This document shows, piece after piece, positions 45,387 to 51,032 of a stretch of 64,000 nucleotides of DNA. The notes under the pieces are model-generated. The model was not told the DNA's origin, did not search any database, and was given only the letters and a program-made list of their open reading frames with translations. The number at the start of each line of letters is the position of its first letter. Position 1 is the stretch's first letter. The stretch comes from Desulfurella acetivorans A63 (GTDB lineage: Bacteria > Campylobacterota_A > Desulfurellia > Desulfurellales > Desulfurellaceae). The stretch spans positions 62,001-126,000 of the forward strand of contig CP007051.1 of assembly GCA_000517565.1 (NCBI GenBank). Reading direction: 5' to 3'. A program made the translations under genes and the position numbers.

Positions 45387-45419
45387 AAGTAGTTTGCAGA
45401 GTTTTTAAAAGGAGTGTTT

Positions 45420-47243
45420 ATGAATGGTAAATTGTGGGCTGGACGCTTTAATACTGGCCAGGATAATCTAATGGAACAATTTTCAGAAAGTATAAGCTAT
45501 GATAAGCGTCTTTATAAATATGACATATTAGGCAGCATTGCTCATGTTAAAATGCTTGCTAAGCAATCAATTATTTTACAAGAAGAAGCCGAGAAAATTA
45601 TTGATGGTTTACGTAAAATTGAAAGACAAATTGAAGCAGGTGAATTTGAATTTAATCCACAAGATGAAGACATACACATGGCAATAGAACGTGCTCTTAT
45701 TAATTTAATTGGTAAAGTAGGGGGTAAGCTTCATACGGCACGCTCAAGAAATGATCAAATAGCACTTGATGAGCGTTTGTTCTTAAGAGATATAAGCATA
45801 GAAATAATAGATAGACTAAATGGATTGTTAAAAAATCTTGCACTTTTTGCTAAAGAGCATATTGATGTTACAATACCAGGTTTTACACACATGCAACATG
45901 CCCAACCGATATTATTTTCACATTACATAATGGCTTTTTTTGAAAAATTTAAGAGAGATAAAGAAAGATTTTTAGATACAATAAAGCGTATTGATGTAAT
46001 GCCACTTGGTGCTGGGGCGCTTGCTGGCACAATTTGGCCTATAGATAGACGTTACACTGCAAGTTTACTTAATTTTACACAAATATCTAAAAACTCTATC
46101 GATGCGGTATCTGATAGAGATTTTATGATAGAGTTTTTAAATAATTGCGCTATATTTTCTATGCATGCATCAAGACTTGCAGAAGATTTTATCATTTACT
46201 CATCTTCAGAGTTTTCTTTTATAGAACTACCTGATGAATTTTCAACAGGCTCAAGTATTATGCCACAAAAGAAAAACCCTGATAGCTTAGAGTTGATAAG
46301 GGGTAAAACAGGTAGAGTATATGGTAATTTGTTTACACTTTTAACAGTGATGAAAGGTTTGCCACTTTCGTATAATCGCGATATGCAAGAAGACAAAGAA
46401 GCACTTTTTGATACAATTGACAATTGTTTAATGATTATTGATATACTATCAAAACTAATCCCAAAAATTAAACTAAATATTGATGAAATTGAAAAATCAC
46501 TTGAAAAAGGCTTTATTACAGCAACTGATCTGGCTGATTACTTGAGCCTTAAAGGTTATCCATTTAGAGATGCTCACAAAATTGTTGGTTCAATTGTAGC
46601 ATATGCTATAACTAAAAACAAAACGCTAAAAGAACTGACGCTTGAAGAATACAAGCAGTTTGCAGACCAGATTGAAGAAGATGTTTATGATTACATAGAC
46701 TATAGGCGTAGTGTAGACAAAAGAAAATCTTTTGGTGGCACTTCCAGAGCCAACGTATTGGAACAAATTGAAGAAGCACTTAAAAGTTTTGATGAAAAAA
46801 GCTCTCATGCAGATTTGTGCCCGAGATGCTCCTACCCGGTTAAAATATATAAAAATCCATCTTTGACTGTGGATTGTATAATAGAAAAACAAAACAAAGT
46901 CCTCCTTGTAAGCAGGAAAAATTATCCTTTTGGCTTTAGTTTACCAGGTGGTTTTGTAGATTACGGCGAAAGTGTAGAGCAAGCTGTAATTAGGGAAGTA
47001 AAAGAAGAAACAAGCCTTGATATTGTAGAGCCAAAGCTTTTTGGTGTTTACTCAGATCCAGAAAGAGATCCAAGAAGCCATACGGTAAGCGTTGTATTTT
47101 ATGCCAAAGCAAGTGGTACCCCAAAAGCTTCGGATGATGCTGAGGATTTAGGTTTTTTTGATCTGGATAATTTGCCTGAGCATATCGTATTTGATCACTT
47201 AAAAATCTTGAAAGACTATTATGAATTCAGAAAAAAGATATAA
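45420..47243 (+). CDS. argH: argininosuccinate lyase fused to a Nudix hydrolase domain
   Basis: 607-aa bifunctional-looking protein. Residues 1 to about 455 are a complete argininosuccinate lyase (last step of arginine synthesis) with HTARSRNDQI, 'PGFTHMQHAQPI' and the fumarase-superfamily loop GSSIMPQKKNP. After a short linker a CPRC pair at 467-470 opens a zinc-ribbon-like start, followed by a Nudix domain to residue 607. Its Nudix box fits GX5EX7REUXEE at about 511-533 (G511, E517, R525, E526, E529, E530). The lyase appears full length, so this is a fusion rather than a truncation. The domains may be cotranscriptional neighbours merged by loss of a stop. The nucleotide hydrolysed is unknown. 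It overlaps recJ by 23 nt. Confidence 0.92.
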   Translation: MNGKLWAGRFNTGQDNLMEQFSESISYDKRLYKYDILGSIAHVKMLAKQSIILQEEAEKIIDGLRKIERQIEAGEFEFNPQDEDIHMAIERALINLIGKVGGKLHTARSRNDQIALDERLFLRDISIEIIDRLNGLLKNLALFAKEHIDVTIPGFTHMQHAQPILFSHYIMAFFEKFKRDKERFLDTIKRIDVMPLGAGALAGTIWPIDRRYTASLLNFTQISKNSIDAVSDRDFMIEFLNNCAIFSMHASRLAEDFIIYSSSEFSFIELPDEFSTGSSIMPQKKNPDSLELIRGKTGRVYGNLFTLLTVMKGLPLSYNRDMQEDKEALFDTIDNCLMIIDILSKLIPKIKLNIDEIEKSLEKGFITATDLADYLSLKGYPFRDAHKIVGSIVAYAITKNKTLKELTLEEYKQFADQIEEDVYDYIDYRRSVDKRKSFGGTSRANVLEQIEEALKSFDEKSSHADLCPRCSYPVKIYKNPSLTVDCIIEKQNKVLLVSRKNYPFGFSLPGGFVDYGESVEQAVIREVKEETSLDIVEPKLFGVYSDPERDPRSHTVSVVFYAKASGTPKASDDAEDLGFFDLDNLPEHIVFDHLKILKDYYEFRKKI

Positions 47244-48897
47244 TACCAAAGGTGAGTTGGTTGAAATTATTATTAATGAAGATTTTTGCAATATCGAAAA
47301 TAAAAAAGTAAAAATTGGCAACACGTATACATATCTTGCTCTTGTAAGGATCTTAAAAAATAGAAATATCTCGGATATTGACAAATTTTTAAGACCATCA
47401 CTATCGCACCTATACGACCCATTTTTACTAAGTGATATGGATTTAGCTGTAGCTCGCACTGTTAGGTCTCTTATTGCAAAAGAGCGTATTTGCATTGTAG
47501 GTGATTATGATGTTGATGGAATAACTGCTTGTTCAATACTCATAAAATTTTTTCAAGAAATTGGCGCAAACATAACATATTATATACCAAAAAGAGAAGA
47601 TGGCTACGGTTTATCGCTTTCTGCTATAAAATACGCACATCAAAAAAAAGCAAAATTAATTATAACCGTAGATAACGGTATTTCTAGCCAGGACGAAATA
47701 GAATTTGCAAAACAATTGGGTATAGATGTAATTATAACAGATCACCATGAACCAAATACTGTACCCAATGCATATGCCGTTGTAAATCCAAAGATGAAAA
47801 ATTCCAAATACCCCTTTAGTGAGCTTGCAGGAGTAGGTGTTGCATTTAATTTTTTACTCGCTTTGAGAAAAACATTGAGAGAGAGAAATTTTTTTACGAA
47901 AGAGCCAAATCTTGCAAACTATTTAGATCTTGTTAGTTTGGGCACACTTGCTGATGTTGTACCACTTGTTGATGTTAATAGGGTTTTTGTAAAGTATGGC
48001 CTATCAAAAAGCTCAAAAGCATTGGATAAATTAAAAGCTGTTTCAAATATCTCAAGCAATTTAAGTACTTATGATGTTGCATACAAAATAGCGCCAAGAA
48101 TAAATTCTGCTGGTAGGCTTGCCGATGCTAATCTTGCAATAGATTTGTTTACAACAACACAAGAAATTAAGATGCTAAAGATAGCAAACTGGCTAGATGA
48201 GTTAAATATAAAACGAAAACGCCTGCAGCAGACAATTTTACAAGAAGCAAAATCAATAGTAGCAGGTGCAAAACATTATGATGCAATTGTAGTCAGTGGT
48301 AAGTGGCATAAAGGAGTAATTGGTATAGTAGCAGGAAACCTTGCTCATTTTTATAGAAAGCCTTCCATTGTTATATCAGAAGATAATTATTTATGTGTTG
48401 GAAGTGGAAGAAGTATCGAATCTATAAATCTCTTTGAAATTGTAAAGCGTCATGAAAACTTGCTTGATAAGTTTGGTGGTCATAAATTAGCTGTTGGGCT
48501 TACACTTAAAAAGGAACATATAGAACCATTTAGAGAAGCTATCAACAAAGAAGTCTCAAGACTTAAAGTAAACGCTTCTTACAAGCTTAGAGTTGATTTA
48601 TCCTGCAATATAAACATTTTTGATAATATTGATTTTTTAGAAAATCTAAGAGAACTTGAACCATTTGGCGCAGGGCATGAAGAACCAACATTTTTTGTAA
48701 GAGGCGGTATTTTGAAAGATATACAGAAAAAACCTTACCATAATATTCTTTTTTTTGATTTCAATGGCAAAAGTAAATCGTTTGTGTCAACAGATGCCGA
48801 TAACTTAAAAATAAATGAGTGCTACAGTATAGCTTTTTATATAACTTTTAATAAAGCGTATTACAACTTTACAATAAAAGATATATTTAAGGAGTAA
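47221..48897 (+). CDS. recJ: single-stranded-DNA-specific exonuclease RecJ
   Basis: 558-aa DHH-family 5'-3' exonuclease for recombination and repair. Motif I VGDYDVDGITACSI, TVDNGISS, motif III ITDHHEPN, and the DHHA1 region 'IVVSGKWHKGVIGIVAGNLAHFY' are present, followed by the OB-fold and C-terminal 'ELEPFGAGHEEPTF'. The start lies inside the last 23 nt of the argH-Nudix gene, so it is probably coupled. Length is typical. Confidence 0.95.
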   Translation: MNSEKRYNTKGELVEIIINEDFCNIENKKVKIGNTYTYLALVRILKNRNISDIDKFLRPSLSHLYDPFLLSDMDLAVARTVRSLIAKERICIVGDYDVDGITACSILIKFFQEIGANITYYIPKREDGYGLSLSAIKYAHQKKAKLIITVDNGISSQDEIEFAKQLGIDVIITDHHEPNTVPNAYAVVNPKMKNSKYPFSELAGVGVAFNFLLALRKTLRERNFFTKEPNLANYLDLVSLGTLADVVPLVDVNRVFVKYGLSKSSKALDKLKAVSNISSNLSTYDVAYKIAPRINSAGRLADANLAIDLFTTTQEIKMLKIANWLDELNIKRKRLQQTILQEAKSIVAGAKHYDAIVVSGKWHKGVIGIVAGNLAHFYRKPSIVISEDNYLCVGSGRSIESINLFEIVKRHENLLDKFGGHKLAVGLTLKKEHIEPFREAINKEVSRLKVNASYKLRVDLSCNINIFDNIDFLENLRELEPFGAGHEEPTFFVRGGILKDIQKKPYHNILFFDFNGKSKSFVSTDADNLKINECYSIAFYITFNKAYYNFTIKDIFKE

Positions 48898-48899
48898 AT

Positions 48900-51032
48900 A
48901 TGGGTTTTAGTGAAAATGCTATAACAGTATTAAAGTCTCGATACCTTAAAAAAAATGAGCGTGGTGAGATTATAGAAACGCCAGATGAGATGTTAAAACG
49001 TGTGAGCAAACACATAGCGCAGCTAGAAAAAGATTTTGATTATTGGTTTGAGAAATTTTATGATTTAATGGCTTCACTTAAATTTTTACCAAATACACCT
49101 ACTTTGATAAATGCAGGAAATCCATTGGGTCAGCTATCAGCATGTTTTGTGTTGCCTGTCGGTGACTCTATGGAAGAGATATTTGAAGCCGTAAAACAAA
49201 CTGCAATTATACACAAAACTGGTGGTGGTACAGGTTTTTCTTTTAGTAGACTAAGACCAAAAGGTGAGGTGGTGCAATCTACAAAAGGTGTAGCATCTGG
49301 TCCTGTATCATTTATGAAAGTATTTGATTGTGCTACAGAATCTGTTAAGCAAGGTGGCGTAAGACGCGGTGCAAATATGGGAATTTTAAGGGTTGATCAT
49401 CCAGATATCTTAGAGTTTATACACTGTAAAGAACAGGAAAATGCCATAACGAACTTTAATATAAGCGTTGCTATAACTGACGACTTCTTAGAAAAACTTA
49501 AAAATGATGAAGAATATGAACTAATAAATCCACATACAAAAAAGGTAGCAAATAAACTTAAAGCTTCATTTGTATGGGATGAGATTGCAAATAATGCATG
49601 GAAAAATGGAGAGCCAGGTCTTGTTTTTATTGACAGAATCAACAAACTTCACACTTTAAAAGGTGTTGAAATTGAAGCAACAAACCCATGCGGTGAACAG
49701 CCTCTTTTGCCTTATGAATCTTGCAATTTAGGATCTATCAATTTATCAAAATTTGTTAAAAATAGTTCAATTGACTGGGAAGATTTAAAAGAATGTGTTC
49801 ACACTGCAGTACGTTTTTTGGATAATGTAATTGATGTTAATAGCTATCCGATTGAACAGATAAAAACAGAAACGCTAAAAAACAGAAAAATAGGTCTTGG
49901 CATAATGGGATTTGCAGATATGCTTGTAGATTTAAATATAGCATACAATAGCAAAGAAGGTGTTAAATTAGCAAGTGATGTTATGAGTTTTATACAAAAA
50001 GAAAGTCACATAGCATCAAGCAATTTAGCAAATGAGCGGGGCTGTTTTCCAGCTTATGAAAATAGTATTTTCAAAGATCAAAATATACCAATGCGCAATG
50101 CCACAACAACAACTATCGCTCCAACTGGTACAATATCTATGATAGCTGATTGTTCATCAGGTATTGAACCATACTTTACGCTGGCCTATTACAAACAGGT
50201 TCTTGATGGCAAAAAACTTAAGTATGTAAATGAAAGACTGCTTGATAGACTGCAATCAAGCGGTATTAATGTGGATGATTTTTTAGAAGAACTTATTGCA
50301 AATGGTGGAAGACTAAAAGGCCTAGGCTTGCCAAAGTCTATTGAAGATTTAAGCAAGATTTTTGTAACTTCAATGGATATGGACTACACTGCCCACATTG
50401 ATATGCAAGCGGCTTTTCAAAACTACACAGACAATGCTGTATCAAAAACAATAAACATGCCAAATTCTGCCACTGTAGATGATGTTAAAAAAGCATATTT
50501 TTATGCTATAGAAAAAGGTTTAAAAGGCCTAACCGTATATAGAGACGGCTCAAGAAGTGTTCAGGTTTTGGTATCGGAATCCAAACAAGAAAAACTACAG
50601 GCTATTAAACGCGGACGTGTATTGCGTGGCTTTACAGAAAAACTCAAAACATCCCGAGGAAGCTTATATGTAACGGTAAATACCATGGGAGGCAAACCTG
50701 TGGAGGTTTTTGCTAATATTGGCAAATCAGGTGGCGATATATCGGCATTGTCAGAAGCAATTGGCAGACTTATTTCAATAGCTTTGCAAAACGGAGTAGA
50801 TGTTGAAAAGATTGTAAATACGTTAATAAACATTACAGGCGCTCAGCCTATTTGGAATGAAGGCAGGCTTATTAAATCTGTGCCAGATGCTATAGCACAG
50901 GTATTGAAGGATCATTTTTTAGACAAAAAGGTTGAAAAAAATTATGAAGAGTGTCCTGAGTGTGGTGGTGTGTTAGAAGAAGTAGAAGGATGCGCTGTGT
51001 GCAAAAACTGTGGGTATTCGAGGTGTAGTTAA
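48900..51032 (+). CDS. nrdJ: adenosylcobalamin-dependent (class II) ribonucleotide reductase
   Basis: 710-aa enzyme reducing ribonucleotides to deoxyribonucleotides with a B12-generated thiyl radical, independent of oxygen. It has '[19 protein letters not shown]' with the N-terminal redox Cys, '[19 protein letters not shown]', the radical region [23 protein letters not shown], and '[18 protein letters not shown]'. The C-terminus has a CPECG...CKNCG zinc-ribbon and a final cysteine pair for re-reduction. It begins 2 nt after recJ and shares one base with the tyrS start (TAATG). Confidence 0.95.

Follow-up and report, generated by a model that had tools for sequence, protein, structure and literature searches.

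An argininosuccinate lyase with an in-frame C-terminal Nudix domain in Desulfurella acetivorans and related genomes

The window analysed here is a stretch of 64,000 nucleotides from the 1.82 Mb genome (G000) of Desulfurella acetivorans A63 (contig CP007051.1, positions 62,001 to 126,000 of the forward strand). On its plus strand, positions 45420–47243 form a single open frame of 607 amino acids, which was read directly in the sequence and contains no internal stops; it starts with ATG at 45420 and ends with TAA at 47241–47243. A sequence-only reading of this DNA had proposed an in-frame fusion of argininosuccinate lyase (ArgH) and a Nudix hydrolase. The proposal was borne out, both domains being complete in one uninterrupted frame. 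The following features were located.

45410–45414, plus strand: good ribosome-binding site ahead of the fusion gene, AGGAG, read in the sequence
45420–47243, plus strand: argH-nudix fusion gene, a single open frame of 607 amino acids plus TAA
45420–46799, plus strand: ArgH part, residues 1–460 (TIGR00838, PF00206, PF14698; confident AlphaFold2 model)
46248–46283, plus strand: ArgH catalytic signature loop GSSIMPQKKNPD, residues 277–288 (aligned with 9ggi and 1k7w)
46782–46817, plus strand: linker between ArgH and Nudix, about 10–15 residues (alignment of 24 fused proteins)
46818–46829, plus strand: CPRC pair, Cys467-Pro-Arg-Cys470 (alignment)
46866–47213, plus strand: Nudix domain, residues 483–598 (PF00293, E 1.1e-20; 2yyh, E 1.6e-32)
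46950–47018, plus strand: Nudix box, residues 511–533 (R525, E526, E529 and E530 invariant)
47049–47081, plus strand: YSDPERDPRSH motif after the Nudix box, residues 544–554 (alignment of fused copies)
47221–48897, plus strand: recJ, whose first 23 bases overlap the 3' end of the fusion gene (frame reading)

The ArgH half matched TIGR00838 with 616.9 bits against a cut-off of 279.5, residues 5–454 covering positions 1–451 of the 455 in the model, and PF00206 and PF14698 matched the same part. The catalytic motifs (His157, GSSxMPQKKNPD, Lys284 and Asn286) are invariant in 22 aligned ArgH sequences, and in the GSSIMPQKKNPD loop 11 of the 12 residues are invariant in this set, the exception being Ile280. 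In an AlphaFold2 model of the full-length protein the ArgH part was confident and the Nudix part was not; the Nudix domain modelled alone, without the sequences of relatives, gave a pLDDT of 44.7, too poor to use. The N-terminal part is best explained as a normal argininosuccinate lyase, which acts last in arginine synthesis, with a predicted activity yielding arginine and fumarate. Since argG was also found in the genome, the final steps of the arginine pathway are present. ArgH structures are tetramers. To our knowledge ArgH uses no nucleotide cofactor, and we know of no established nucleotide substrate or inhibitor of the enzyme.

The Nudix half (residues 483–598) matched PF00293 with 74.5 bits, compared to a gathering score of 21.1. 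The Nudix box had been described as intact at residues 511–533; its position and its catalytic residues stand, but the late glycine is replaced by Ser532. The box reads G-x5-E-x7-REV-x-EE-x-S-L, and at the late position the other fused copies have Gly, Ser or Asn. The metal-binding and catalytic residues R525, E526, E529 and E530 are invariant in 20 aligned fused copies, as is the core Y-S-x-P-x-R-D-x-R-x-H that follows the box in the fused copies. The motif is shared with 2yyh, and a weaker form of it occurs in 2fml and 3i9x.

The CPRC pair ahead of the domain exists as claimed, but it is not a defining feature. It is retained in the fused families f1–f3, with one copy reading CQRC and one CERC, and is absent from family f4 in the alignment of the 24 fused proteins; the pair therefore cannot be essential. 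Among unfused relatives of the domain a CxxC occurs in 33 of 78. A four-cysteine zinc ribbon of the NudC type was not found: there is only one CxxC and no match to Zn_ribbon_Nudix. The linker varies in sequence and is similar in length across all fused copies in the same alignment.

The gene directly downstream of the fusion is recJ in families f1–f3, and its 23-base overlap in the window suggests translational coupling. In family f4 one copy was inspected by eye, and the gene after the fusion resembles nuoA there. Further downstream in the window, positions 48900–51032 encode a protein of 710 amino acids that resembles a B12-type ribonucleotide reductase, a name based on sequence reading only; it has a cysteine-rich C-terminal tail, CPECGG...CKNCGYSRC.

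Our collection comprised 25 genomes of the phylum to which the window belongs, and argH was detectable in 24 of these. All 24, from four families, have the Nudix domain in frame with ArgH: three belong to the genus of the window, sixteen to a second family and five to two further families. Compared with the window copy, the remaining 23 fused copies are 52–95% identical in their Nudix parts. Four fused frames are shortened, three at contig ends and one by a frameshift, all of them away from the junction. The frameshift is in a draft genome of the genus of the window (L004, G002:C37, about positions 360–380) and splits argH near residue 84; either assembly error or recent damage may be its cause. 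The exception genome, G023, has neither argH nor the fused type of Nudix domain, yet argG is present. Because argG is kept, an assembly gap is as likely an explanation as loss of argH together with the Nudix domain.

To compare the history of the two halves we used 190 pairs of fused proteins. The ArgH and Nudix identities are correlated with r 0.955, with mean identities of 69% for ArgH and 67% for Nudix. The NG86 dN/dS was about 0.08 for ArgH and 0.09 for Nudix in a pair from the same genus (L003/L005), and 0.01–0.09 and 0.06–0.17, respectively, in pairs with unsaturated dS. These low values show that both halves are constrained, the Nudix half somewhat less so, with purifying selection acting on each domain. 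At the junction of the fused copies, ahead of the Nudix domain, there is no conserved start codon in frame, so the Nudix half is probably made solely within the fusion; independent translation from an internal start was rejected on this ground. A tree built from about 100 Nudix domains was poorly resolved, the alignment being short. One common origin for all 24 fused domains was not rejected (p-AU 0.686), and the tree constrained to a single origin lay 13.7 lnL above the free search. The simplest history is one fusion event before the families of the phylum split, and the fusion is best explained as a stable, ancestral two-domain protein.

Outside the phylum several hundred genomes were sampled, a large sample rather than a census, and no ArgH-Nudix fusion was found among them. 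The Nudix subfamily was matched with an E-value of 1e-22 or better in 154 of 386 sampled genomes, the 24 fusion genomes included, and in 108 of the 136 genomes of another phylum. None of the matches listed to this subfamily outside the phylum is in an ArgH-sized frame. Clear ArgH matches were present in 255 genomes, and each of the long ArgH frames listed outside the phylum was opened; none ends in a Nudix domain and most are upstream frame extensions. In one of them (L188, G139:C152:4000-9500) an ArgH frame of 895 amino acids continues into a TolC-like protein of the outer membrane that has a signal-like sequence of its own; the probable cause is loss of a stop or an error in the frame. A search for viral relatives of the Nudix domain returned none.

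Long frames of its relatives show that in different bacteria the same Nudix subfamily is fused to other partners, namely Macro, QRPTase/NadC, CoaD, PanE, AMMECR1, HD and a second Nudix domain. NadC here is quinolinate phosphoribosyltransferase, CoaD phosphopantetheine adenylyltransferase and PanE ketopantoate reductase. The Macro, NadC, CoaD and PanE fusions are at loci L135–L138, L128, L025 and L129–L130, and further fusions of the subfamily are at L132, L133, L141, L139 and L140. The name CoaD rests on a CTP_transf_like match and on sequence reading. Some of these proteins carry the Nudix domain at the N-terminus. Macro domains bind ADP-ribose, and the repeated fusions (Macro, NadC, CoaD, PanE, AMMECR1) offer a testable hypothesis for the substrate. 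On the likely function of the Nudix half these fusions tell more than the model matches and the best solved relative. Since the family also joins partners unrelated to NAD, however, the partners guide such an assignment only weakly.

Among curated models the Nudix half best matched NadM-Nudix, the repressor NrtR, which responds to ADP-ribose, and NAD diphosphatase. Matches to the ADP-ribose models reached 57 bits or less compared to curated cut-offs of 354–449, those for NadM-Nudix and NrtR being whole-protein values set for other architectures. With scores this far below the cut-offs we describe the Nudix half as probably working like an ADP-ribose pyrophosphatase and not as a member of that family. 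According to a survey of NAD recycling, ADP-ribose pyrophosphatases show a tendency towards fusion with enzymes that recycle NAD (PMC3680494). Heat breaks NAD down to nicotinamide and ADP-ribose (PMC10663502); in a thermophile this would provide an obvious job for an ADP-ribose pyrophosphatase. Judged from its sequence, the Nudix half is most likely an active pyrophosphohydrolase, namely an ADP-ribose pyrophosphatase.

We also considered whether the fused domain is the sole ADP-ribose pyrophosphatase of the cell. Each of 11 scanned genomes of the phylum has the fused Nudix domain plus at most one other. In the genome of the window the sole other Nudix protein detected (L002, G000:C1:680391-680711) resembles CoA pyrophosphatase, with 103.9 bits against a cut-off of 134. 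The claim of a sole enzyme was rejected because CinA/COG1058-like proteins are present, with matches below cut-off. These could be ADP-ribose pyrophosphatases, and the role of the fused Nudix domain need not be unique.

The explanation that we favor, and to which we assign about an even chance, is a two-headed enzyme in which ArgH and an ADP-ribose pyrophosphatase for NAD housekeeping are linked physically and not coupled catalytically. The Nudix domain would hang by a short linker after the last helix of ArgH, and its putative reaction would be cleavage of ADP-ribose from NAD turnover to AMP and ribose-5-phosphate. Both active sites would work separately. From what is generally known of ArgH structures, several Nudix domains would be placed on one ArgH tetramer, and the fusion may provide fixed stoichiometry on this presumed tetramer and joint expression rather than channelling.

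An unlikely alternative makes the Nudix domain a sanitiser of the MutT type, acting on damaged nucleotides such as 8-oxo-dGTP, that just happens to be joined to ArgH. The best solved relative of the Nudix half, 2yyh (E 1.6e-32), is labelled as an 8-oxo-dGTPase domain, and there are weaker matches to the mutT and YtkD models. These are outscored by the ADP-ribose and NAD models, although MutT-like models come close in family f4, and the relatives fused to Macro or NadC suggest ADP-ribose and NAD instead.

Equally unlikely, in our judgment, is a regulatory fusion, in which binding or cleavage of ADP-ribose or another nucleotide by the Nudix domain would alter ArgH activity and tie the output of arginine (or fumarate) to NAD or nucleotide status. 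The strict co-retention of the two domains across the phylum and the short linker are in line with such a role, and there are precedents for Nudix domains, fused or as partner proteins, acting as ADP-ribose sensors or lifting an inhibition, namely NUDT9H of TRPM2 (PMC4974056) and ACT, which clears the ADP-ribose that inhibits methanol dehydrogenase (PMC12926040). A pure sensor would not need the full catalytic set, yet all catalytic residues are kept here, and the linker sequence is not conserved. Regulation by a nucleotide also fits poorly with an enzyme that, as far as we know, uses none. The more specific proposal of a control device fixed at the base of the phylum, in which the Nudix domain would set the arginine or fumarate output of ArgH by sensing or cleaving ADP-ribose (or NAD breakdown), we regard as distinctly unlikely. 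If it were true, ADP-ribose control of ArgH would connect NAD status with arginine synthesis in a way not described before.

There is still less to recommend a role of the Nudix domain in the arginine pathway itself, in which it would clear a damaged or inhibitory nucleotide that arises in the pathway, for instance where ArgG releases AMP. Functional partners are often joined by fusions, and argG is present in the genome of the window. The Nudix subfamily, however, is widespread without any link to argH, and the lyase has, from general knowledge, no established nucleotide substrate or inhibitor. The sequence-only reading had suggested that the domain could remove an inhibitory nucleotide. The precedent for this, ACT, concerns another enzyme; ArgH has no nucleotide cofactor, and none of our results points to such a role.

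A neutral merger of two adjacent genes without benefit appears very improbable. The absence of an obvious metabolic link and the wide variation of the Nudix partner between lineages would fit it, and the halves might persist merely because ArgH or Nudix is needed alone. However, the fusion is kept in 24 of 24 genomes and four families with both domains constrained. A merger of neighbours had been suggested for this protein, but in the genomes of today unfused homologues do not adjoin argH, which leaves an origin from adjacent genes unsupported. In the single-contig genome G034 the stand-alone Nudix homologue is 56 kb from argH, and elsewhere the two are on different contigs. A Pfam tally of 90 neighbours of unfused homologues gave no conserved partner, and no lyase was within its 25 commonest families. 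A sequencing or assembly artefact joining argH to a Nudix gene, including the one-base error at the junction that had been considered for this gene, is ruled out by the same uninterrupted junction frame in 24 separate genomes, all those of the phylum that have the gene.

No description of an ArgH-Nudix pairing was found in the open literature searched, and a genome paper on the Desulfurellaceae (PMC5317093) makes no mention of argininosuccinate or Nudix. The view that the protein is unlike ArgHA holds, and ArgH-Nudix is a real, clade-wide and apparently undescribed architecture of two well-known families. The fusion marks the lineage, and annotation of the gene simply as argH hides the Nudix half. 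The clade-wide pairing joins two enzymes that are not known to be connected in metabolism. It either hints that arginine synthesis and NAD or ADP-ribose metabolism are linked in a way so far overlooked, or is a clean natural example of a fusion kept for expression or stability.

Several known systems can be compared. ArgH(A) of marine gamma-proteobacteria consists of ArgH and an ArgA-type acetyltransferase (PMC1382215); like the protein of the window it is an ArgH with an extra enzyme domain that is limited to one clade. Its partner belongs to the same pathway, whereas the Nudix domain has no evident role in arginine synthesis, and a Pfam domain search of the window protein gave no match to an acetyltransferase domain. 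In NadM-Nudix (NMN adenylyltransferase/ADP-ribose pyrophosphatase), too, a related Nudix domain forms the C-terminal half of a protein with a biosynthetic function. There the partner is an enzyme of NAD synthesis; the protein described here lacks a NadM domain, and its score is far under the cut-off of that family. The Macro-, NadC-, CoaD- and PanE-Nudix proteins have the same Nudix subfamily with different partners. Stand-alone YSDPxRDPR-type Nudix proteins such as 2yyh have the same domain and motifs but no ArgH, and many free-standing bacterial copies are about 50–60% identical to the Nudix half of the window protein.
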